NCBI RefSeq assembly: GCF_000189635.1
Contig: NW_002476370.1
Location: 744,001 to 808,000, forward strand
From: Tetrahymena thermophila SB210
Taxonomy: Eukaryota; Ciliophora; Oligohymenophorea; Hymenostomatida; Tetrahymenidae
DNA length: 64,000 nucleotides
Direction: 5' to 3'
Of the stretch, positions 7,526 to 64,000 are shown piece after piece. The notes under the pieces are model-generated. The model did no database searches, was not told where the DNA came from, and saw only the letters and a list, made by a program, of their open reading frames with translations. Positions within the stretch are counted from its first letter, which is position 1, and each line of letters opens with the position of its first letter. Position numbers and translations under genes: made by a program.

Positions 7526-9518
7526 AAATCAGATATTTTTATACTGAAATTTACTTTTAAAATAGTAACCAATAATAATAACTTTTAATTAATTATTAAC
7601 ATCTTTTAATCAAATAAAATAATATTCAATATAATAAATTTAATTTAATTTAAATGCATAGTTTTATCTAAATTCATGTTTTTAATAAAGCCTCTCTCTA
7701 CTTCTACTGTAATATTAAAATAAATATATTTATTATTACTTTATAAATTAATTAACTCTAATAAAATAGCTAGAATCATCATTTAAACATTTTTAAAATT
7801 AATTTGTTAAATAGTTTACTCTTTAAATCAAGAAAGTATAAAGAAAAAAATTTTATAAAACGAAATTTATTAAAAATTAAATAACAATTTACATTAAAAA
7901 AAATTATTTTGTTCAAGTTTATTTTTAAAAATGTATTTTTCTGGTATGAAACTGCTTTAAAGTTATCAATATTCATGAAAACTTCTATACATGAAGCACT
8001 TAAAATTTTTAAAGATTAACTTACTCAAATAAAAAATGTGTAAATATTTTTCAAAATAAATGATTTTATATTTGAATTCTTAAATTTGAATAGTTTTTAG
8101 AAAAAAGATGAACGGAAGACTGAGTTATTAATTAGTTTAAATTTTTGTTATTAAATAAAATTTTAATTTTACTACTTTTTATTAAAATCATATTTAGTAT
8201 TTAAATAAATTTACAACTCTTTATCTTATTTAGAATAACTTAAATAAAATTTTTAAGTATTCAATTAAATTTATTAGTTTCTATTTAGTATAAGAAGGTG
8301 ATATCAATAAAATATAAGAAAGAATTAATTTACTCATTTAGATGAATTTTTAATTAACCTTAAGTATAATATTATTTCTGTTTGCTAAACTTCTAAATTT
8401 AAGGTAAACTACTTACAATCAAAAAAATTTGCATAAAATATATCACAATGTGAACAAATTTAGCATATTTATTATAAATTACAGTTCTTTAAATCGTAAA
8501 ATAATAATATTTATTTTAAAACTAAGAAAATTTACCTCTTCAGAATAAAAGATGCTTTTATTTTCTAAACAACCCCTTTGTAGTTCTAACATATATCATT
8601 AAAATATATCTAAATTATTATCCTTGATTTTTTCTAGTAAAATATCCCATTTAAAAATATTTTTATTAATTAATTCTAGCAGTATATTTTAATATTTTAG
8701 ATAAAAGTCTGAAAATTTAAAATTAAAAAAAAAAATACTATTGAATAAGACAACGGCAATATTATTAATCAAATAAAACAAACAAACATATAGCTCCAAC
8801 CAACATTTTATCCTATACAAATCTTGTTTGATATATTTATAATTAAAATAATTTTTAAAAATTCTCAAAATTTTTACATTCTGTTCAAATAAATCTTTTT
8901 TAGATTAAAATTCTCAAAATTTTATAATTTTTTTCTAATAAATCTAATTTAGATTATAAATTTAATGTCAAGTTGGTATCAAAATTATTTACATAATTTA
9001 TTACTTTCAAATAAAGATTCAAAAATTATTTTTAATCGTTTCAACAGAACAACTGTAAAATAATGGTAAAAAGTTGTTATTTTATGAATAAAAAATAATA
9101 TAAATAAATATCTCAAATAAATTTACCTTTATAATTTTCAAGCAAACAAAAAATACTGAGACACGTAATCTTTTTTTGTTAATTAAAATAATCAAAGAAA
9201 TTAATTACTTTCTTTCTTTCTCGATTGGAAAGACAAACACGCTGTTGCTATTATTTTTTGATAAATTTTCATATCTTGTGTAGAGTTTGATAATAACTTT
9301 ATGAGTACTTATTTGATTTGTTTGAATATCTTCTTGTATTAAAAATTAATTAAAAGCAGATTATTTAATAGATTGAAAATTTGCCTTTCAATCTTAATTA
9401 TGAATGATAAACATTTTATTTAAGAAATTAATTAAATTAAATAAAAAGTAAAATTCTTTTTGTTGTTCTAAAATTATTAGCTATTTCAAAAAGAGTAAGT
9501 AAATAAAATAATTAGAAA
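7526..9518. other. 2-kb AT-rich intergenic region
   Basis: No gene was recognised on either strand. Near 8860-8960 the motif ATTCTCAAAATTTT recurs at short spacing. The promoter of the downstream coiled-coil gene should lie at the right end. Confidence 0.5.
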
Positions 9519-12500
9519 ATGAGAATAAAACATATTAGATTAGTGTCTAAAGGACTCATAGTTATTACAATTTTTGCCTTGTGTCTTTGCTTAACTTAAG
9601 CAGATGACTCGTAAAAACCTGAAGATGTAGAGGCATTTTTAGATCCACAAAATTCAATATTTAATGAGCAATCAAATGAAAATTTATAACCTGATATTTT
9701 AAATAGACCTTTGCCTCCAAATCGCAAGCCTCCCACTCTTCCAAAAAGGCCAAATAGCTAAAACTAATAGAAAACTCTTACTGAATAGCAAAGAGAGCTT
9801 TAATTGAAAAAAATCGAATAGGAAAAGCTAAGTATTGAAACTAAGATGTAGTAAATTGAATAAGAATTAAGAGAATAATAAAATATTGAAATTCTAAATT
9901 AGTAAGAATTATAATAACTCCTTTAAGAAGAAGAATAAACTCTTAATTCTTAAACTGAAGATGTTGAAGACATTTAAAAATAATAAGATGATTACATTTA
10001 ACAACAAAAGAAGATCTTTGAAGCTGAATAGGAAAGGTTAAAAAGGCTAAAAGAATAGGAAGAGCTACTTAGAATATAACGTGAGCAAGAAGAATAACGT
10101 ATAAGAGAACAATAGCAGGAAATTGAAAGGTAAATTGAATAAAATCGCTTAGAATAAGAAAGAATAAAACGTGAAAAGGAGGAATAAAACCGTAGAAAGA
10201 GAGAAGAAATCCAAAGAAAAAAAGATGAAATTTAAAGAAAATAAGAATAAATGCGTTTAGAATAAGAATAAAGATTAAAGTAGCAAGATGAACTTTAGAG
10301 AAAAAGACAGGAATAGGAAAAGAAGTTTAATGAGCAAAGAGAGCTCTTAGAGAAGTAGCGTTAAGAATAGGAATTGCTTAAAAAATAGAGAGAAGAAGCT
10401 GAGCGTAGGAGAAGAGAGCAAGAATTATAACGTAAAAAAATGCTTGACGATCTTTAGCGTTAAAAAGAAGAACAAGAAATCAAAAAGAAGGCCGAGGAGG
10501 AAGAAGCTGCTCTTAGGCTTTAAAAGCAAAAAGAAGAATTAGAGTAAATCTTAAAAAGGCGTGAGGAGATGAGAATAGAGCAAGAGAATTCTGATAGAAT
10601 ACGCTAATAATAAGAATATTTGAAGAAACTGCAAGAAGAAGCTGAGCAAATAAGATTATAGCAGATGGAAGAATAGCAGAAATTGGAAAAGGAAAGATTA
10701 AACAACCAGTAAAATAACGAATAAAAAGAAGAGCTTGAAACATAATAGTAGCATGAAGAGCTAGAAAAGTAAAAGAGAGAAATAGAAGAAAAGTAAAGAG
10801 AAATTGAAATCTAAAAGAAATTGGAAGAGGAAGAATTACAAAGAAAGAGATAAGAACATGAGCTAAGAGTTTAAAAATAAAAAGAAGAGATAGAAAGATT
10901 ATAGCTTGAGGAGTAAGAGAGATAGAAAAAGGCTGATTAGGAAGAGTAACTCCGTTAAGAGTAGCTTCAAAAGCTTTAATTTGAAAATGAGTAGTAAGAG
11001 AGAGAGCAAGAAATATTAAGATTACAACAGATGTAAAAAGAAGAAGAGTTGAATCGTCTGAACAATGAATTATAACAATAAGAAGAAATTATTAGAAGAG
11101 AGAATGAAGAATAAGAAAGACTACAAAAAGAGCAAGAACTTCTTTAATAATAATAATAAATTGAAAAATAAAGGGAAGAATTATTAAAAAAAGAAGAAGA
11201 AGAACTTAATAAATCTAACTAAAACATTATTATTGATGATCATGATCATCACCATGGACACGACCATCACCATCATCACGGCCATGGTCATGGTCACGAT
11301 CACGATCATGATCACTCTAATATTTAAGTTAACTTTGGGGATGATTAAAAAAAGGAGGCTAAAGATGAAGATAAAATTCAATAGCCTGAATAAAGTTTAG
11401 GAGAAAAATACTAAGAAATCATGAACGATTTTATCTAGTTCATAGAATATAGCATGAAAAATATTATTCATCCTGGTTTTAACTATATTAGAAGTCATGA
11501 GCCTTTCAATTACATTTGCTTTACATATGCACTAATCATCCTAATTAAATTCATTTCTAAAAAGTTATTCTCTTCTGGAGGTATGCAGATTTAGGGTGGA
11601 GCTAAATTTAATCTCTCTGCTGAAGCCGAAATGGACTTTACTGACCTTACTAATTAGCTTGAAGCTCTCAGCAAGGAAGTTAGATAATTAGAATAAGTTA
11701 TCAATTCCAAGAGCCCAGCTTCTTCTGCTGTATAACAACCAATTTCTAATTAAAAGGCTTAAGCTGTGATTCCTGATACTCGTAAAATTAATGAATCTCT
11801 GATTTAGAAAATAGAAAAGAGCGAAGAATCTGTCAAGCAGTTAACAAATCAATTTAATTCTTTGAAGTAGTTTTAAGTTTAATTCTAATAAAGTATTTTT
11901 GATACCTAAAAAGAAATTATCAAAGAAGTGCATCAATTAAAATTGCAAAGAAAGAGAAGATAACCAAGTAGTGTAACAGATGTGGCATTAACTGGAATAA
12001 ATAACCAAAATGGTACTAATTTGAATGATTCTTCTCGTATCTCTCGTAAGTCATCATATAGCGAAATTAATAACAGCACATCTGAAGTTTAGTAGTAATC
12101 AGTCTCATAAAAAAGTGAAAGACCTTCATATAATAGCAATATAGAATAAAAGGCAACTTCATCCAGAAACTAACATTAAAAAAAGCAACACAATTCTAAA
12201 AAAGAAGGTTTAAATAACTCTGTTTCTTAGGAAAATCTTTCATAGTAAGCATAGTCTGATAGTGTTTAAATAGTAGAATCAGAAAATGCACAGAATAATT
12301 ATGGAAACGAAGCTGCAGAATTGGAATAACAATAAGATAATTAATAAACTGTGTAATATGAATAACAATAATAACTTAATCAATAAGATTTATAAAACTA
12401 AGAAAATAACCTCTAAGAAGATCAAGTAGCTAGATCAGGTTCTTAAGGACGTAAGGGAAGTGCTAGATTAATTGAGGAGCAATTTTAAAGTTCAGACGAA

Positions 12501-13169
12501 AATAGCTTCTTTGATTAGCAAGTTAATTAATTGAGCAATAACTTGCACTAGAAGAAACAATAATAATAAGAATATTAACAAGTCGAGAGCTAAGATAATC
12601 AAGAATTCCTTTACTAATAATAAATGGAAATGAATACTTAAAGCAATTAGCAATAAAATCTTCATTAACATCATCATTAGCAGTAATAACACCACCATCA
12701 CCATCATGGACATCATGAAAATAATACTCATTAGCATAGTAATTATCCATAACAGTAACAATAGTCGAATTAACACCATAGCAATAGCCAATAAAAGCTA
12801 GGATCCCCTAATTTAACTTAAGTACCTCCCCCAAGTATGTAGAGCTAAAATATCACTAGAAATTCACCATTTTAATAAGGAATGGCTCCTTAAAGAAATA
12901 AGAGCAATCAAGGATTTTCTTTAAATACTGATTAAACAGGTGAAAATCATATACCTGAAGATGCTACTGTAGTTATGACACCAGATTAACACAGCTAGCA
13001 AAATCATAATCCTTTTACTATCCCACGTCCTGTTGGATAAGTTGGTGCAAAAGTTCCAACTACTGGTCGCCGTTAGCCTCCAAATGCTTTTGCAAACTAA
13101 TTCTAAAATAAGCATAATCCAACATAAAAGTAATTTACTGCTTTTCCTTCTAACTAAACTTAGCAGTGA
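9519..13169 (+). CDS. large Gln/Glu-rich coiled-coil membrane protein with His/Asp clusters
   Basis: A single uninterrupted reading frame of 1216 residues from ATG at 9519 to TGA. The N-terminus is a good signal peptide: a basic start, then LIVITIFALCLCLTQADD. After a proline patch (LPPNRKPPTLPKRP, about 63-77) comes a roughly 480-residue coiled coil of repeating EQERLKR-like heptads, with Gln mostly as TAA/TAG. At about 574-598 lies a dense His/Asp cluster (DDHDHHHGHDHHHHHGHGHG and more), a likely Zn, Ni or Cu ligand. One hydrophobic segment, ICFTYALIILIKFI (about 665-682), suggests a type I membrane protein. The predicted cytosolic tail is Ser/Gln/Asn low complexity with a second His-rich patch (about 1044-1065) and a C-terminal Pro/Gly/Arg segment. 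No family was recognised. The lack of introns is notable beside the intron-rich neighbours. Trichohyalin-like resemblance is compositional only. Confidence 0.8.
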
Positions 13170-24165: not shown

Positions 24166-25718
24166 CTTATTTTTTATTAGTGGAATATTCTAAAAAGGAT
24201 ACAATCTTTTTAAGCTTTATAATTTGAAAATTTATTAATTAAATTATTTATGATCAAGTATGCTTTATTAATTGATTGATGGATGAGTGATAACTAAGCT
24301 TTTTTGGGTCATAAATCTGTACTCTTTATTTATTTAATATATTTTTTATATAATTTTATTTCTACTTCAAATTTAATTTTGAATAATTTATTTATTATGC
24401 AAAAAAAAAAAATTCATTTTAATTAAAAAATTTTAACAAAATAAATAACCCTTGTAATGAGCATATTCATTGTATTTAATAAAGTTAATAATAAAAACAA
24501 AAATTATATTTTATAAAATATTATTAAATACTTAAATAATGAAATTAGATATATTTTTTATCACAATTTTAAAAATTATATTTGAAGTGATAAGATAATT
24601 TAACGCAATTAAATATTTATTAAATTAAGCCAGCTATTCTCAATAAAAAGTTCTTTTTAATTAGGCCAGCCTAAATATTTTTAAATGTAGCTTTTATTTT
24701 TGGACAAATTAAATTAAAACATAACAAGTAAATATCATAATATCATCTTTAATCAAAGTTCTTGAATCTGTAACATTCAACATCATTTATATGTTCACTG
24801 CATGTAAATTTAGTAAAATAAAAATATTTCCTTAAAATACTGAAAGCAAATATCCGTTCAGTAATTTATTTTAAACATATTTTAGGGTAAATTTAATGTT
24901 CTGGCTTGCATATAAATATTTTAAGGTAAGCCACATAATTAGTCAAGGTTCATCAGACATTTTTGTTTTTTTCATAATTAAATCTCTTAATTTTTTTTGA
25001 TATAAATAATTAATAAGAAAACAAATACTTTTTTAAAAAAATAAACAAAATTGATAGTAAATTTCTAAAGTTAAAATAAAATATTTTTTTCATTTTATCT
25101 TTATATTTATGGAATTCTTAATAATAATTAGGCTTTATTCAACGCTTATTCATTATTGAGTAAATAAATTTCTCATAGTTTTTTCTAGAAAATCTCCTTT
25201 TCTATTTTACACTTATAGAAGCCAGCATTCTCTTTATCTTTTCTTAACGGAGAAAAAAAGATGGTTAGAACCTTATTATTTAGTTGTATATCAAAAAAGG
25301 AATCTTTTGAAAATAACATATCATCAATAACTAAAAAAAATATTTAAAAAATTGAAAGTATGAATGAATCTATTATGATTAAGTGATTGCTTATAAAAAT
25401 GAACGAACTCTACAACAAATAAAAAATATTACTAACTTAAATTAGTTTTGATAATATTTTGAAATTTGTTGAATTAGCAGGAAGGAAGGAGGGAGTTAAT
25501 TGATATAACGAAAAAGATATTTTTAAAAATGCCAATGATGTGGATAGATTATTACATATGAGATATATTTATTTTGACAACATATCTTCATTTACCTATT
25601 TATTGTATGCAAGGTTATTAGTTTAAATATATTTCTTTTTGTTAATTTAATAAACTCATAAATAATTATATTTGAATAATTAATATTCATTAAAAATCAC
25701 TGTTACTTTTAGAGAACT
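24166..25718. other. intergenic region, nothing firm
   Basis: AT-rich spacer upstream of both the small Tim gene (-) and the lipase gene (+). A GGAAGGAAGGAGGG tract lies near 25490. A 29-codon minus-strand frame near 25155-25245 (ASISVKQKRRFSRKNYEKF) is too short to call. Confidence 0.5.
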
Positions 25719-26870
25719 ATGAAGAAGTTTTGCTTGTATTCTTTTCTAGGATTTTTGATAGCCTGTGTAGCTGTCTACTTTATTGACACTGAAGATGAAA
25801 TATTTTGGCTAAAACCTTTTAGCGAAAGGATGGAAATCTAAAATTATCCTCATTAAACTCACTTTTTTATAACAGAAGATAAATGGAATATTACCATTTT
25901 CAGAATAGCTGCAAAAGGTTCTCACGAAACAGCTTTCAAAAAAGGCTATAGAGCGAAACCCATTATACTTATCCCTCAGCTACTGAACTGCGTAGACTCT
26001 TATGTCATCAATGATGAGGAGTTATCTCCTGCTTTTATTTTGGCAAATGCTGGATTTGATGTTTGGCTTGTTACTAATAGAGGTTCTGAGTATTCACCAA
26101 ACTTAGATAAAGTTGAAGAAGAATATTCTTTCCACGAAATGGGTTATTATGATTTACCTATGGCTTTTGAATACGTTCATAATATAACTAATTAGAAAGT
26201 AAGTGGTTTAGGTCACTCTTAAGGCGCCAACGTCATTTTAGTTGCTCTTTCTGAAAAAAGATTAAATTATGTGGATAAAGTCTTCATTATAGCTCCTGGT
26301 ACTCACATAAAATCTGCTTCGTATTTTACTGATTGGCTAGCAAAATCAAATCTTCCAGAAGATTTATATAAGTCTTAAAAATAAGTTGGAAGCAAAACAA
26401 GATTTGGAAACAAAATGAGTAAATACACACCTTTTATTTCTCGTACAATAACACTATTCTTTTGTGATGGTTGGGAAAGCGAACTCAACATGAAAAATGT
26501 ATTTAGAATAGCTTCCCATGATTTATAGCCTACATCTACCAAAAACTTATTGCATTGGGCTTAATTAAAGAGACTTGGAGGTTTCTTTAAGTTTGATTAC
26601 GGAAAGGAGAAAAACTTATAAATCTACAAATAAGCTAATCCACCAGAGTATGATTTATCTAACATAACAGAAAGTATTCATATTTTCCATGGTATTCACG
26701 ATATCTTAACAACTAAAGAAGAAATGATGGAGTTATACAATACTTTTAAAAATGGTAAAGCCAAAAATGTAACATACTAAGAGTATGAAAGATCTGGTCA
26801 CATAAGTTTTGTGTTAGGAAAAAGTGCAGAATACACTAAGGATCTCATAAGAATCTTAAATGACGACTGA
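25719..26870 (+). CDS. acid-lipase-family alpha/beta hydrolase
   Basis: An intronless 383-residue protein starts with a signal peptide or anchor (FCLYSFLGFLIACVAVYF), so it is secretory or lysosomal. The order of motifs follows the lysosomal acid/gastric lipase family. ILIPQLLNCVDSYVIN sits where the family has the oxyanion loop, then FILANAGFDVWLVTNRGSEY (family form DVWLGNNRG), then the nucleophile elbow GLGHSQGA with Ser near residue 166. The probable acid is in FHGIHDILTT (Asp near 327) and the His in RSGHISFVLG (near 360). Length fits the family. Oddity: the usual HG of the oxyanion segment reads PQ here, so activity or substrate range may differ. The likely reaction is hydrolysis of neutral lipid esters, inferred from the family. 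Confidence 0.9.
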
Positions 26871-32747: not shown

Positions 32748-34274
32748 TCATTTAAGAAGTAGAGATTATTTGCTGCTGTCTATTTGCTAAAGTTCTGGTA
32801 TATCTTATTAGATTGGTTGACCTATGGTTTCTTTTAAAAATAAGGCAGCCACGCACCCAGAAAGTGTTAGAACTCCTAAACTTACCATAGGATTTATACC
32901 TATTCTATTGGAGGTATCAACAACATAGGGAGCCAAAAAACTTCCAAAATATCCATAGGCAAAGCTTAGACCAAATCCAACCGATCTCAATGTTGTTGGA
33001 TAACTCTCACCACACCATATGATAACCACACTAAAAGTAACAGAAACAACACATCTAGCAAGCGCTAACATGACAGATTAGAAGATCTTTTACCAACATG
33101 TGTCTGATTCACTGCTACAAGAACTAGGTATTGAGTAGAAGTAAAAAGAAATGCTTATTAAACAAGTAACTAAGATAGTAAAGAATGTTCCTAATTTCCT
33201 TGGATATTTATGTGAAATTAGATTTGAGATGAAGTATCCCACTAACTCGCTAATACCAATTATTAATGAGTTATATCCAAATGAAGAACCAAGTTAATCA
33301 AGAGAAACTTAGATTCCGTAATACAAGACATGAGGGGTAACAAATAGTATATTCAGCAAGATTGTGTTAACCCTCTGGGATTTATATCTAAAGAGATCTA
33401 AGTAGCTATAAATCTTATCATATTTAATGGCAACATCCGTTAGCTCCTCATTTGATATTTATTCCTTCTTGTTAACCTTGGCAATATAATTCAAAGTCTT
33501 TAAGCATTTTTATCTGTTTTTCGAGTACAAGAACCTTGGTGAGTCATGCAAAAAAGTGAAAGGATAGATATTAAGGATGCAGAAAGGAAGAGTGAAGAAA
33601 AAGAATGTGCACCATTTCCAATTAGGGAGTACATCAATCATCCAAATATATTAGATTTCATTCAAAGACCAAACTACTTAGAGCAATATTACTCCTACTA
33701 CTCTAAATTTTCCACTCGAGAGTTCGCTGCTGTGGACAAGAAGAAGGACTCCTAAAGGCTAAACACCTAGACCTAGACCAAAAGCACCTATCATTAACAT
33801 TGGTATATTCACTGCAAAATTCAAAATGAGAGAAAAGATACTACCTATTGTCCAGCAAATTTGAATCGCTAGAGTTCTACCTTTGTTGTCGGACAAAAAG
33901 TTAAAGGTTAAAGTACCAAGAACACATCCAAAGAATGGCATACTTTAGATGACTGTTCTCCATATTCTCTTACTGCAGTATAAATCTAGCTCAGCTGATA
34001 TACTTCTGTTTTTCTCATACAATAAATGAGAGATAACATTTGAATCACAGGCTCCACTATCTTCATCACATGAGGACCAAATACCATCTTTAAAACATTC
34101 AAAAGCTGGAGGACTGAGGTAGTAGGTAATCATCATGAATGAGTAGGCAACAAGGAATAATCCAAGCATTGAAGCAATAAGCACAATCTTTTAGTACTTA
34201 TGACTTTAACCAACTTTCTCCATAGCTTCCTCTATATCTATTTCTTATTCCCTAATAGACTGCTCTATACTCAT
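32748..34274 (-). CDS. SLC22-like organic ion transporter (major facilitator superfamily)
   Basis: An intronless 508-residue frame runs from ATG at 34274 to TGA at 32750-32748. It has the hydrophobic profile of about twelve membrane helices. After helix 1 (IVLIASMLGLFLVAYSFMMI) comes a long Cys-rich outer loop (CFKDGIWSSCDEDSGAC) ending in LDLYCSKRIWR, the place and form of the SLC22 family's large extracellular loop. The loop between helices 2 and 3 carries the MFS signature FLSDNKGRTLA, and helix 11-12 contains GESYPTTLRSVGFGLS, the usual E-x-Y-P-T-x-x-R motif of organic ion transporters. Substrate is unknown; organic cations, anions or zwitterions are typical. The N- and C-terminal tails are short, cytosolic and Gln-rich. 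Divergent from the choline kinase gene, with a hairpin between them. Confidence 0.88.
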
Positions 34275-34863
34275 TTGTTATTATTTTTTAATCACTTTTT
34301 TTTTTTCAAAAATATCTACTATTTTTTATATATTTTAATATTGATATATTCTAACTTTAAATTAAAAGTATAGGAGAAAATAGTCACATTTTGTCACTAA
34401 CAAATGGATCAGTCAGCATATTTGACTCATTTTTATATTAATCTTAAATATAAAACATACCTTGAATTATCCAAATATATATTTTCATTTATCAGTAAAT
34501 TTTAATTCAAAAATATTTTTACTAAGTTCTATGCTACACGCCCTCCCTTAATGAAAACCCCCAAAAATTAGAAAAAATATTAAATATTATATTTGAACAC
34601 TTTTTATACTCTTTATTTATATAGTAAATTCAATTTATGAATTTTATTGAATAGTTATTTTACTTACTTCCCTTTTCATAAATATTTTAATTTACTTTTT
34701 TTATTTTAAATTAAACATAATCTAGGTATTAAAATATAATGCTATCCAGTTCATCATATTTTAATACCTGGATTAGCAATAAATTTGCAATTATTATTCA
34801 ATTTATCTTTATATCATTATTTTAAATTAGTAGAAGATTAAATAAGTAACATAAATTAGCAAT
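34275..34863. other. divergent intergenic region
   Basis: Between the transporter (-) and the kinase (+). It should contain both promoters, and it holds the 19-bp inverted repeat listed separately. A C-rich CCCTCCC patch lies near 34540-34560. Confidence 0.5.
34719..34774. repeat. 19-bp inverted repeat (hairpin), 18-base loop
   Basis: The left arm 34719-34737 (AATCTAGGTATTAAAATAT) and the right arm 34756-34774 (ATATTTTAATACCTGGATT) are reverse complements except for one position, which can still form a G-T pair. It lies 90 bases upstream of the kinase start. It could be a cruciform, a dimeric-protein binding site, or the remnant of a small mobile element. Confidence 0.8.
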
Positions 34864-36021
34864 ATGGAAAATATTGATTTTTCAAAGTTTGATTGGAACT
34901 TGATCAAAAATGAAATATATGAATAGTGGAAGGACCTCTAAGAGACTGACTTTGAGGTTAAAAGATTGAGTGGACTTTCAAACTACGTTTACTCAATTTC
35001 TGTCCCTAAGCTAGCAGATATCACTAAACCAATAGTTTATAAAATTTTCACTAATTATTTTATAACAATGTAAGATAGAGAAAGAGAAAAGAAAGTAGCA
35101 AAGATGTTAGAATCTTAGAAATATGGTCCAAAAGTATACTATGCTGATAACAAAATTAGAGTCGAAGAGTTCTGGCCATTTGATCACGTTTAGGTAGAGG
35201 AAATGACTCAACCACAAAAAATGAATTAAATAGCACATTTATTTGCTTTTTTCCACTCAAATAAAATTTTAAAAGAAGAAGAGGCATCAGCGAAATTTGT
35301 CAATCATTTATAAAGAAAGTAAGTTCTTGAAGCAGTTTAGAATTCTATTTAAAATAGCGATTTACAGTTGCAAGAATAGAAAGAAGAGTTGTTGAAAATG
35401 GTTGATTTTATCTTTTCCACACAAATGATTGATTATATTTTGCAGTCAATGGATAAAGCAAAAACACCTTTAGTTTTCTGCCACAACGATACAAACTCAA
35501 CAAATTTATTGTTTGATAATGAAAATAAAAGAATTTATTTCCTCGATTATGAATATGCTGGCTACAACTACAGAGCTTTTGAATTTGGAAACTTTTTTAA
35601 TGAATAGCTTTGGGACTATGAAGTCAAAGAACCTCCCTTCTTCGCTCTCAAAAAAGAGCTCTATCCTTCAGATTCATAAAGATACAGCTTTTTTGCCAAC
35701 TACATAATAGCAACCATATTATAAAAAAGGTAAAGTGAAGAGAGATTTAATCTAAGCAAATATTCTGATCTTAGTCTCTAAGATCTCTACCAAACAATCC
35801 TGTAATTAAAAGATGAGAAGTTCTAATCCAACGAAGATATCATTAATGAAATTAAGCAATATGATAACGAAGCAAATGCTGGAAAATTACTTTCACATAT
35901 TTGTTGGTTCTTGGTTGCTGCCTTAACTTTCTCATATAAAGACCTTCACTTTGATTGCTACAGTTATTGTAAATTACGCTTCAACGAAATCAAATAAATT
36001 GTAGGAGATTTCTCAAATTGA
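34864..36021 (+). CDS. choline/ethanolamine kinase
   Basis: An intronless 385-residue frame, ATG to TGA, with the family's defining motifs. RLSGLSNYVYSI is the glycine/serine nucleotide loop. VYKIF plus a downstream Glu is the lysine region. VEEFWPFDHV precedes the linker. The catalytic loop is FCHNDTNSTNLLF, matching HxDxxxxN. The choline-kinase signature is YFLDYEYAGYNYRAFEFGNF, whose first Asp corresponds to the DFG-like metal ligand. The C-terminus contains HICWFLVAALTFSYKDLHFD, the usual hydrophobic end of the fold. The enzyme phosphorylates choline or ethanolamine with ATP, the first step of the Kennedy pathway to PC and PE, in the cytosol. The motifs do not separate choline from ethanolamine preference. 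Confidence 0.93.
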
Positions 36022-40254: not shown

Positions 40255-41785
40255 TCAAATTTAAGAGTAATTGCTATTTTTATCGATAGATTGTAAAGAT
40301 AAAATCTTTTTTCTTTGGAAGAAAATATAACCTAGAGCACCAACAAACAAAACGCTAACTATTACTATAACTACGATAGCCCATGTAGGAGTTGAAGAAC
40401 TGTCAGGACTAGAAACATAAATAGGGTTGTCACATTCTTTATCAAAATCAGATACAATAGAGTAAGAAATTGATTATGTGAATTAGTCAAGATAACAGAA
40501 TGTGTCAGCAGTGCCACACAAGGGTTATGCAGTTCCATTGTAGAGAGCTTTGACGTATGGTTTCTTGTTATTATCCTCATAGAGTTCAAAAATGATGTTA
40601 GATGCAAAACCTGGATATGTGTAAATGCAAGGAGAGCTAGGATTTGAAGCAAAAGTTTGATTTTTAACTTATTCCATGCATTACCAGCTAGTTAAGTTAA
40701 GTCCTTGAGCAACCATGGCTATAGTAGTATCGTGAGCAGAAAGCATGATCCACTTGAAAAAAGGATTTTAAGTATCCTTAGCACTCAAATAATTATTGAA
40801 ATAAGCTAACAATTCATTGAAGAAAGGAGTAACTGAAGTTTTCTTTTATTGCTCAGTCTTGAAAAGGGCTAAGTGAAGTTAGATAGAGTAGAGTAAGTTC
40901 ATTTAGACCCACATAACATTAAAATTATTGGGATTCATCATTTCATCAAGAGGTAATAAGAAACCTTCTATTTATGCGGCAATTAATGTATTTTATGCAT
41001 CATCTCCAGCCCATTTAATTGCAATAAGAGTATCAACAAGTTGAGCTATGGTATCCAAATCAGGATTAGCAGGTAATTGGAAGAATTTGTTGTTAGCCAA
41101 TTTGTCAATCAAAGGTTAGAATTCACCCTTTATTCTATTCCAGTCTGAATCGTCTTTATTTTTTTGGCTCCATTTAGGAGAATTATTACAAGCATCGCCG
41201 TAACCAAGTAACTGTTTCTCATCTTTTTGTTCTTTAACATGAATTGGGATGGGTTGTTATCCACCAGCTAAAGCATACTTTTACTAGCCAATATCAGCAA
41301 TTTTAGTAAAAGGAGGAACCATGAATTAGGTGTTGATATTTTCAACATCAATGCCTTTATTTAAGGGGAACATACCAGCAAGTTAGCTGTAAGCAGACAT
41401 TATTGTTCTAATTATTAAAAGAAAATAATTTAGATCACTATGAAGAATTTGAACATTTATCACAATTTAAAAGTAAAAAATTTTACCTATTTACGTTAGT
41501 AGACTTGGCATAAATAAAGGTGTGATCATATTTATCAGGGAAGTTAAGACTTTGAGCATAATTTTATTGAAGGGTTACACCTAATACATAGTGCATTCTT
41601 TATCCTTCAGCAGTTAATTCTCCATAATTAATTTAATTGTTATTAGGATAAGAAGAATTATAAATACGGTATCTGGCTCCGTGTCTAAAAGTTTCTACTA
41701 CCTAGAGAAGCTTGCCTTAAGGATCTTAAGCAGCTAAGATAGCCTATGTAAATGCTAAGAATGCTAAGACGAATTTTTTAATCAT
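40255..41785 (-). CDS. membrane-anchored histidine acid phosphatase
   Basis: Two exons, 41785-41487 and 41407-40255, flank a 79-base intron and encode 483 residues. The start has a signal peptide (FVLAFLAFTQAILAAQ). The phosphohistidine motif is VVETFRHGARYR (RHG at about 34-36; the usual RHGxRxP lacks the proline), the second catalytic motif is MLSAHDTTIA (HD near 324), and KSTNVNRTIMSAYSQLAGM is the family's conserved R-T-x-x-S-A region, split by the intron. Cysteines in CMEQ, PCIY, PLCG and FCYLD are placed as in secreted acid phosphatases. A hydrophobic helix (WAIVVIVIVSVLFVGALGYI, about 440-460) and a short basic tail give a type I membrane protein, like lysosomal acid phosphatase. Hydrolysis of phosphomonoesters in phagosomes or lysosomes is inferred. 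Confidence 0.92.
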
Positions 41786-59437: not shown

Positions 59438-62400
59438 TCATACTTACTTTCCTTAGAATATTAATCCTAGATTTGATTATTGTTTGATGAAAATGTGATC
59501 ATAAGCATCTTAGAAGGCTTTTTTTTCAGCTAAAGTTTCAGAATAATCTATTCCTGTTCCTACTTTGATTTATTTAATTAGAATCGTAACTTTGACTTTA
59601 TATTATCCATCAGTGTCTTTGACTACCTCTGTAATTTTTCCTAATTATTCATAAGTTTACTAGGCAACTAATTAAACTTTCTCTTTCACATTAAAAATAA
59701 TTTTTTAGTAAAATGTAACGAAATGAATAATGTATGGAGCATATAGTTTTCCATAAATTGAAACAAAAGTTGAAATATCAGAATCCATTATGATTGCTCC
59801 AGCAACTGACTCCCATAAATCACCTAGAACTTTGGGAGAATTAGCTTGATGCGACACTGACTCTTTAAACTTAGTATTTAGGTTGCAATCCTCTATAAAT
59901 TAGATAATTTCATCTTACTAATATTTACTTATATTCAAAGCATAATAATGAAATTTATTAAGGATAGCCATTCTAGACATAAAGTCATTGCTGAGCAAAA
60001 GAGACTTCATTTCGCAAAAGAAGTAAGGAGAATTTATTTTTTTTTGCCTATTTCTTGAAATATGATAACCATGAGAAACAACTAAAATCTCTATTAAGGC
60101 ATCTCCCAAAAATTCCAATATCTAATAATCTTAAAAGTAATGCTCAAAGTTGCTGTTTGAATGACAATTTAATGCTTTTATTAATAAAGATTTGTCTTTA
60201 AAAGTGTAGTTCAGTATTTTTTCAAAGCCACTTATGGCTATGTCCAGTGTTTACTCATGAAGCTATTTAAATTTTCTATATTCAGACCTGTCCTTCCTTC
60301 TCTGATTAGGACAAGTATTATTTTAAAATTCTACTTCATACTTATTTTTATAAAATAATTCATCTTTAATATAAAACTTAATAAGATTCCATATAAATTG
60401 TGTATTTTCTTCATTTTGAATTATTTCATTCTAAATCTTTTCTTCAAAGCACTATTCCATTTTTTTATTTGCCTAAATTTCAAATTCTTTTTATAAAAAT
60501 TTCTTTCCTTATAATTAAAGTTCATAGTAAGTCATTTCCTCATCTATCTCCATCAAATCGATAATATCATCACTCAAAACGAAGCTCCCATTGACCTAAT
60601 TCTAAAACTTATTTAGGAGATATTAATCTATCTAGAGTCCTAAATCTTTGATTAGCTAAATACATGTATTCAAAGTAAATTAATTGCTGGCATAAAAGCA
60701 CCCAACAACTGATTCAAGGGTATCAGATAAATTTGAGTAAGATAGCTAAAAAGATTATCTAAATTCAAAAAATTATTTTAGTATAAAATTTGTTGAAAAA
60801 TAAAATAATTTACTTTTAATCTTGCGGTGCTTCAGTGAAAGAATTCAAATTGAATAAATTAAATCTCCAGTCATAAGAACTTGGTCTTTTAGTCTGAACA
60901 TAAAATTAGAGACCGTTTCTAAACGCTGAAATTCCTAAATATTTGTTGTTAATAAAAATAGTGCGTATCATTGTAAGGGCATTTTCGCTTTAATTTGGAA
61001 GATGCAAATAAAGATAAAGAGAAGAGATGTATTTGATTACAACATCACCTATTACCTCAAGCAATTCTAGGTTTTTAGTTTTACTGTAAGAGATCTACGA
61101 AAATGACTCAATAAGTAATTCTAAATCTACATTATTTTCTAAAAAGTAGTTACAAGCAAAATCTCTAACAATCATGACATCTTTAATTAAGGCAAAGATA
61201 GAAGGAGCTTATAAGTGAGAGTTAATCAACTAAGTATTTAAAACATGTTATTCAAAATGCTCTAAAGGTAAAAGCGACATGTTAATCTTGTTATCAGAAA
61301 AGTCTTTTTGTAAGCAAGACTGGAAAACTCCCTTGTTATTTTTAATATGAGCATCACTAAGGAAATCGAAATTTTTCAAATGATTAATCTTTCTACAAAG
61401 TACTAATGGATTACGGCGATTAAATTGATGGTATTGGGAAATTTAATTTGTATTCTAATTATATTTATTCTAAGTTTATTGATTAGTTTAAATATTATTA
61501 TTTGCTATCAATTGTTGCTAATAATCTTATATGTATTATTAAATTTCTTTTTTTTAAAAATTTACAAATTATTTTCTAATTGCAAAAAACATTTATGCTT
61601 TGTCAGTAAGGTATTTATCTGGTTAGCTATATATACAGTCATAAAGAGTATCACTTTGCAAGTCTTTTTATGTAGCGTCTTACTTTAGAAAGAGTTTCTA
61701 TTTGATACTGTCATAGCTCATACCTGTATGTTACGATAATGACTATATAAACTGATCAATAGTAGTATTTGATGGATCAAAAATCTCAACTATTTGATAA
61801 AGATCTTAATTTAAGAACAAATGGCGATAAATATTAGATTAGTAAGCCAATCTAAATTTTTCATTTTTCAAAGTAAGTGAAATATTATTAAGTTTTTCAC
61901 TTTCTTAAAATAAATCTCCATCTAATTTAACTCTTGGTTTTTATTATTAATCTTAATTGGTGGGATCTTACATTTTCATTTAATTTTCAGGAATTTAATC
62001 TTATTCACTTTGTTAGATTTCTTAAAGTTGTTTATTTTAATCATTTACCAATTCTTGCTTTTGCCCATTTTATTCAGTTACTACTACTGAACTACAAGTA
62101 TTTTCTTGTTAATTATTTGAATCAACATCAATTTTTTTTAGATCATGAAGATTTTAAGTGATTTCTTGATCAGAAATATCATTTATTTTATTTTTTTCCT
62201 TTTAAAAAGTCAAATTAAATTCTTCAATTTATTTGGTTGGTAAAATTATTACTTCATCTTATAATTTATTTTCATTTTCAATTAATTAATCTTTTTGATT
62301 CATCGTTAAAGTATTTTCATTAATTAATTCAATTATTGTTACATTTTATTTGTCCAAATTATCTGATTTTGATGTTTCATCAATCATTTGCAAATCTTAA

Positions 62401-63320
62401 CTAAAATTTATAAATGTTGTTGCTAAATTTAATTTATTATCTAGAATACTTTTCTGTTTTTTCTAAAGATTAAAGTTATGTATTAAGTCAAAATCTATGA
62501 ATTAATATGGGTTCTCATTTATCTCTTTTTCCATATCACATTTTTTACTATCAAAATTTGTTAAGACATGATTATTATTGAAATTATTTAATTCTACTTC
62601 TATGTATTTTTGAGTTAGTAGAACTTAAAGAAATTTCACAGAAATTGTAGACTACATGAAATACTCAAAGATGTAGCTTGAAATTTAGTTTCCTTCCTAC
62701 TAAAAATCCTTAAAAAATCCAGTATTGAAGTTATAAATTGACAAAAGCTCTGAGGATGATAGGCTTATAGTAGAAATAAACTTCAGCTAATAAATGCAAG
62801 GATTAACTTCAGATTTATAATCTTCAAGATCTTTTCTTAAAAATAGTTCTAATTCTCTTAACTCTGGTAATTTTACACTTGAAATGAATCCAAAAACGTA
62901 AGCAGGGTTTTCAGTATTATACACTTAATGTAAATAGACCTCATAAATTTTGCTTTCTTCATCACTTTCATTGTGTGTATCTTTCTTTTATTTAATTTCT
63001 CTAAATGGTTGCTAGATATAAGTGCACTAGGATATTTATTCTAGATTTTAACTCAACAAGTAATCTACTGTTTTTTGACATTAATTCTTAGCATCAAACT
63101 GAAAAGCTAAATTCTCTGCTTCTGGTATTTAACTTAGTTGCATGTCCATTTTTATATCATAACCTTGCTTTTATTTAATAGCTGTCAATCTTTTTTTTGA
63201 TTATCCTTTATCTATTTTTTTTTGTTTAGTTTTTTTAATTGATGAGTACTATTTTTTAATGGAATGGCAAATGATTTTAAAGCCCAACTTAGCACTTTTA
63301 ACTTTAGGTTTGTTTCTCAT
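59438..63320 (-). CDS. Dicer-like endonuclease without a helicase domain (DCL1-like)
   Basis: Two exons, 63320-60814 and 60758-59438, flank a 55-base intron and encode 1275 residues. RNase III domain a (about 700-870) has NLELLEVIGDVVIKY and SDTLESVVGCFYA. Domain b (about 1000-1170) has QILEFLGDALIEILVV and KVLGDLWESVAGAIIMDS. Both keep the acidic metal ligands (E...D and D..E), so both sites should cut. A dsRNA-binding-like end follows (KVKVTILIKQ...SETLAEKKAFQDAYDHI). Upstream, LKFISTISLSSSELLSIYNF matches the Dicer platform segment, and a PAZ-like region probably lies near 480-600, separated by a Gln/Asn/Glu low-complexity insert (about 290-480). No DExH helicase motifs occur in the 290 residues before the insert. 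A poly-T AG just upstream of the ATG could be an acceptor, so a further 5' exon is possible. In Tetrahymena, a helicase-less Dicer (DCL1) makes scan RNAs in meiosis; the orthology is inferred from architecture. Confidence 0.9.
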
Positions 63321-64000
63321 TCTAATAATTTCCTCTAAAAAAAAAATTGTCCCTCTTTTATTTTCTTAAATTTATAAAAATATATATTTCAATTAAAAAT
63401 AAGATATCAATATTCAATTTAATTAAGGATAGCTTTGAAAAATATTCAGTATATTTATAAATTTTTGCAAAATATTAGCTAAGCTACATCTTTCTACTCA
63501 CACTATCAACAAAATCATGAGGTAGAATTTGTAAAATAAATCATAATCAAATTCATTTTTTAAATCTAAAAAAATAACTAATAATTAAAATATTAGAAAT
63601 ATTTTTTAAATTTAAGTTTTAGATTTTTAAAATATATAAAATAATTCTTATAAATTATAAATAGATCTATTATCTATACGTAAAATTAAAAAAAAAAAAT
63701 TAATTAATAAACTAAATTAAATTAAATTCTAAACCATTTTTTTAAATTTTTAATTTGAAATTTTTAAAAATATTAAACAATAAATGCTATTATATAAATT
63801 TATTAAAGAGAAATGAAAACAATTAAACAATAAAATGAAACAAATTTAAAAATTAAAATATGAGTAGAAATAGTAAGTAAATTATATATATATTTTATTT
63901 ATGTTATAAAATAGTGTCAGATAATAAAATATACATAGATACATACATTCATTCATTTAGAAAAATAATAATTTTATGTAATCTTCATTTTTTTTTGGAA
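63321..64000. other. upstream flank of the Dicer-like gene
   Basis: AT-rich DNA to the window edge. It should hold the promoter of the Dicer-like gene and possibly an unseen upstream exon. Nothing with coding character was recognised. Confidence 0.5.

Follow-up and report, generated by a model that had tools for sequence, protein, structure and literature searches.

The window, by which we mean the whole stretch of 64,000 nucleotides that was analysed, contains on its minus strand a gene for a predicted Dicer-type enzyme. Translated with the ciliate code (table 6), the gene runs from an ATG at position 63320 to a TGA ending at position 59438, and its spliced translation draws on two stop-to-stop frames (63413-60765 and 60844-59438). 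Its features, and the neighbouring frames in the window, are the following:

59438..63320, minus strand: Dicer gene without a helicase, two exons, 1275 amino acids; stop-free spliced translation, Pfam RNase III found twice, Dicer relatives in the PDB
62466..62948, minus strand: candidate platform, approximately residues 125-285, placed by eye only
61857..62438, minus strand: Gln/Asn/Glu-rich stretch, approximately residues 295-488, from a composition count
61401..61856, minus strand: candidate PAZ-like stretch, approximately residues 489-640, placed by eye and position only
60683..61064, minus strand: RNase IIIa, residues 753-861, from PF00636, DCL1 and Drosha alignments and alignment A1
60759..60813, minus strand: predicted intron of 55 nt, GTAAAT...TTTAG, within RNase IIIa
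59768..60196, minus strand: RNase IIIb, residues 1024-1166, from PF14622, Dicer alignments (3c4b, 2eb1 and others) and alignment A1
59495..59683, minus strand: dsRBD-like end, approximately residues 1195-1257, from the best TIGR02191 stretch and the 7eld and 3c4b alignments
25578-26867, plus strand: alpha/beta hydrolase frame
32751-34412, minus strand: sugar transporter frame
34651-36018, plus strand: choline kinase frame
40258-41781, minus strand: histidine phosphatase frame

The intron at 60813-60759 is a sequence-only prediction, placed from its borders and from the domain that its removal restores. Splicing it out adds the half of RNase IIIa that contains LSDTLES, and the PF00636 match then covers residues 753-861 and profile positions 2-101 of 102. 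Directly before the ATG, at around position 63339, a run of T is followed by AG, a possible splice acceptor of an intron in the 5' UTR.

The Pfam search matched PF00636 to two stretches of the 1275-amino-acid protein (98.5 bits, E 4.5e-28) and PF14622 at 38 bits, above the threshold of 35 for that family; besides these RNase III families nothing scored above its cut-off, one LRR_4 line being listed at E 0.072. The presence of both RNase III domains on a single polypeptide agrees with Dicer, the class III RNase III. In alignment A1, which compares both domains with those of a second Dicer of this genome (C212, see below; its sequence consists of pieces joined by eye across introns), the residues E, D, D and E are invariant in all four domains, so that the quartet is intact in RNase IIIa (E755, D759, D848 and E851) as well as in RNase IIIb (E1051, D1055, D1149 and E1152). 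We take these four acids to be the catalytic positions, as known from RNase III structures. The closest relatives in the PDB are Dicers, namely the DCL1 of 7eld (E 2.3e-25) and mammalian Dicer (approximately 2e-20). 7ELD is tabulated as Arabidopsis DCL1 in a published review (PMC10328071). With RNase IIIa alone, the DCL1 of 7eld (1.1e-12), Drosha and DCL3 were retrieved; the second acidic motif is weakly aligned in the DCL1 and Drosha matches, and PF00636 covers both motifs. RNase IIIb and the tail together matched Dicer 3c4b (1.8e-19) up to residue 1242. A preliminary description of this DNA had credited the gene with two RNase III signatures that keep their acidic residues, and the Pfam matches and both quartets bear this out.

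The same description had named a dsRBD-like end, and the C-terminus agrees with it. The best stretch of the NCBIfam model TIGR02191 covers residues 1135-1257 and extends across the dsRBD, up to position 218 of the 219 in the profile; the score, 72.9 bits, lies below the cut-off of 166.25 of this bacterial RNase III model. The 7eld DCL1 alignment extends to residue 1254, and that of 3c4b ends inside the dsRBD; the Pfam dsRBD model gave no match in the protein. Together, these alignments support a dsRBD-like domain at the C-terminus of the enzyme, a feature expected of a Dicer.

RNase IIIa, RNase IIIb and the dsRBD-like end were thus recovered in the order described previously, whereas the platform and the PAZ-like region named ahead of them obtained no relevant sequence match. 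Searched up to E 10, both regions gave weak, unrelated matches only in Pfam; against PDB sequences, the platform stretch gave a single irrelevant match (E 2.9) and the PAZ stretch no match. A genome scan with the PAZ family PF02170 returned 13 matches, 12 of them over the cut-off and none at the Dicer gene. As a separate observation, C125:49751-69080 carries five PAZ matches on one strand in approximately 19 kb, which probably mark Argonaute/Piwi-type genes arranged in tandem. The similarity of the window protein to a solved Dicer, the DCL1 of 7eld, starts at residue 678, presumably the connector just after PAZ. If so, a PAZ domain would be expected N-terminal of residue 678, and its position makes a diverged PAZ at approximately residues 489-640 plausible. 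In some fungal Dicers, PAZ is hidden by low sequence conservation, as stated in a published review (PMC10328071).

The Gln/Asn/Glu insert of approximately 190 residues between the two candidate regions had been called unusual, a view that we do not share, as the insert is ordinary for this window. Its richest segment of 190 residues (325-514) contains 38% Q+N+E, and two of the 36 other frames of at least 300 amino acids exceed this value, the one at 9408-13166 with 59% and the one at 22237-19763 with 47%; many frames of this comparison set, which was drawn from the window and not from the whole genome, are shadow frames. An open frame on the plus strand at 9408-13169 codes for 1253 residues; a segment of 190 residues in it reaches 59% Gln/Asn/Glu, and Pfam at E 0.001 assigned the frame to no family.

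A second Dicer lies elsewhere in the genome, at C212 (approximately 110534-117326; L007:534-7326). It has several exons and combines a ResIII/DEAD helicase, a Dicer_dimer domain and two RNase III domains, and we infer that it is DCR1 or DCR2. The two Dicers have the same catalytic acids in two RNase III domains, and their RNase III parts are approximately 20-32% identical, but the helicase and Dicer_dimer domains of the C212 enzyme have no counterpart in the window gene. Excerpts of the literature speak of three T. thermophila Dicers, DCL1 with products of 27-30 nt and DCR1 and/or DCR2 with products of 23-24 nt (PMC8138440). One review passage mentions a single Dicer (PMC2287173), a statement that we set aside because two Dicer loci are seen in this genome. 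Family, protein and pattern searches of limited reach did not recover the third published Dicer, which may have diverged, be interrupted by introns or be absent from the assembly.

The reach of these searches can be judged from their results. PF00636, searched in the genome with E up to 10, gave four matches at two loci. PF14622 gave two, both at C212, and missed the window gene although the whole protein passes the cut-off, and the window protein found itself twice and missed C212. The helicase stretch of C212 gave three matches, among which that on C291 (E 0.0058) had not come up before; C291 was rejected as a third Dicer because it reads as a helicase gene, in which the RNase III motif was not found, and we take it to be a FANCM/Mph1-type helicase. 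Of the five matches to C212 RNase IIIb, one pointed to a further locus, C323 (E 0.055), which was likewise rejected since the profile detected no RNase III there. The codon pattern E-F-[L or F]-G-D, which would miss the RNase IIIa of the window gene (EVIGD), occurred 32 times in the genome as against 36 times for the reversed control, and among the 30 of these 32 loci that were scanned with the A1 profile only C167, the contig of the window, and C212 matched. An argument for DCL1 by elimination is limited, because individual searches missed C212 or the window gene.

Canonical Dicers have an N-terminal helicase and Dicer_dimer. Neither a helicase (ResIII/DEAD) nor Dicer_dimer (DUF283) was detected by Pfam in the 1275-amino-acid protein, and the same search returned ResIII, DEAD, Dicer_dimer and two RNase III domains for the C212 Dicer, which served as a positive control; genome-wide, Dicer_dimer matched at C212 only. 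The absence of an N-terminal DExH helicase, as claimed in the preliminary description, thus holds for the protein, and it extends to the adjacent upstream DNA that was scanned. If a helicase-bearing Dicer had been cut short here by missed upstream exons, these would have to lie in or beyond the 985 bp that separate the ATG at 63320 from the stop of the next gene on the same strand (L005:5406, window 64306). This gap has a GC content of 8-20% in 200-base steps and could not accommodate a complete Dicer helicase, and no Pfam family was found in any of the 12 upstream minus-strand frames of at least 130 amino acids on the flanking stretch L005, nor in the three of eight listed minus-strand frames that were scanned on L006 at the contig end. 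The contig terminates 8.7 kb upstream of the Dicer gene, and its end frames, which read GVGVG and PQPQP, point to a GGGGTT-type telomere repeat. Even with the oligo-T/AG acceptor-like site before the ATG, which would permit a short upstream exon or an intron in the 5' UTR, missed helicase exons have next to no chance of being the explanation, and the upstream helicase exon that would have spoken against the earlier claim would have scant space in the AT-rich gap and was not matched by Pfam in the frames scanned. The protein and its surroundings support a Dicer-type enzyme that is predicted to lack a helicase and to have two intact RNase III centres. The contig end itself (L006, C167:812901-816060) carries, besides the GGGGTT-type repeat, a ribosome-binding GTPase frame near it.

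We consider it highly likely that this helicase-less Dicer gene is DCL1 of T. thermophila (TTHERM_00284230) or the orthologous gene of a near-identical relative; the gene would then be already known, very probably as the studied Tetrahymena scan-RNA Dicer. The assignment to DCL1 is made by inference, because the species matches, because the other Dicer found (C212) has a helicase, and because DCL1 is presumably the helicase-less Dicer of T. thermophila, with DCR1 and DCR2 carrying a helicase. Work of 2005 by Mochizuki and Gorovsky and by Malone et al. is said to describe DCL1 without a helicase. In its presumed make-up, DCL1 resembles the window gene in having two RNase III domains and a C-terminal dsRBD and in lacking a helicase. 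The species was set from a single locus, a telomerase exon that is identical over 102 of 102 residues to PDB 2r4g, presumably the telomerase of Tetrahymena thermophila. At least one Dicer-like protein of T. thermophila combines helicase and RNase III, according to an excerpt of published work (PMC3566956). The portions of the literature that were searched contained no statement that Dcl1p lacks a helicase and no DCL1 primer sequences, and neighbouring locus tags of the TTHERM_00284 series yielded no synteny link in the literature.

As three Dicers are published, two loci were found and the assignment uses domain content alone, the window gene could be DCR1 or DCR2, itself short of a helicase and serving some purpose other than making scan RNAs. 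This is unlikely, given that both presumably carry a helicase and that C212 shows the helicase-bearing kind to be present in this genome. It is very unlikely that the gene encodes a Dicer that lacks a helicase and differs from the published DCL1; if it did, it would be a second Tetrahymena enzyme of this shape, with an as yet unassigned small RNA product. That the DNA comes from a close Tetrahymena relative with an additional helicase-less Dicer, non-orthologous to DCL1, might be argued from the single exon that sets the species, and is exceedingly improbable in view of the complete identity of that exon and of the searches made, which found no second helicase-less Dicer.

If the gene is DCL1, its function can be taken, by analogy, from the published work. 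In the excerpts available, Dcl1p (TTHERM_00284230) is conjugation-specific and cleaves germline dsRNA to 28-nt scan RNAs (PMC2636879), it acts in the germline nucleus to generate the early scan RNAs (PMC5666084), and it is located in the meiotic micronucleus (PMC2636879; PMC5666084; PMC4331008); the scan RNAs are approximately 26-32 nt long and loaded onto Twi1p (PMC4331008). The link to the meiotic scan-RNA Dicer drawn in the preliminary description is consistent with the helicase-less architecture and with the helicase of the other Dicer found, its functional part being borrowed from this literature.

We propose that the DCL1 Dicer would cleave long dsRNA, which arises in the meiotic germline nucleus through transcription of both strands, to scan RNAs of approximately 26-32 nt. 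These would be loaded onto the Argonaute Twi1p and direct the elimination of germline-limited DNA. For the cleavage, both RNase III domains would come together in one intramolecular processing centre, in which each domain cuts one strand. The N-terminal half may hold the RNA end and measure the length of the product, with the putative platform and PAZ as the ruler, and the dsRBD may aid substrate binding. Lacking a helicase, the enzyme would not be driven along the RNA by ATP, and scan RNAs could arise from end-measured cuts on germline dsRNA. The conservation of the catalytic residues supports the predicted catalytic part of this mechanism; the remaining steps are suggested by the family and by published DCL1 work.

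DCL1, described in primary papers of 2005, is an early case of genome editing that is guided by RNA through a comparison of germline and soma. Its recovery here would add a gene model, with coordinates, close to the end of a macronuclear chromosome, and no mechanistic insight. Dcl2, Dcl3 and Dcl5 of Paramecium are presumably helicase-less as well. In the parts of the literature that bear on them, these Dicer-like proteins make the scan and ies RNAs (PMC7599177; PMC7374600), and Paramecium is described as splitting the labour among several enzymes, whereas in Tetrahymena a single enzyme serves for both the early and the late scan RNAs (PMC7599177). The Giardia Dicer was absent among the PDB sequence matches listed. 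According to a published review, it resembles the window gene in that the helicase base is absent, but, unlike the window gene, it also has no C-terminal dsRBD (PMC10328071).
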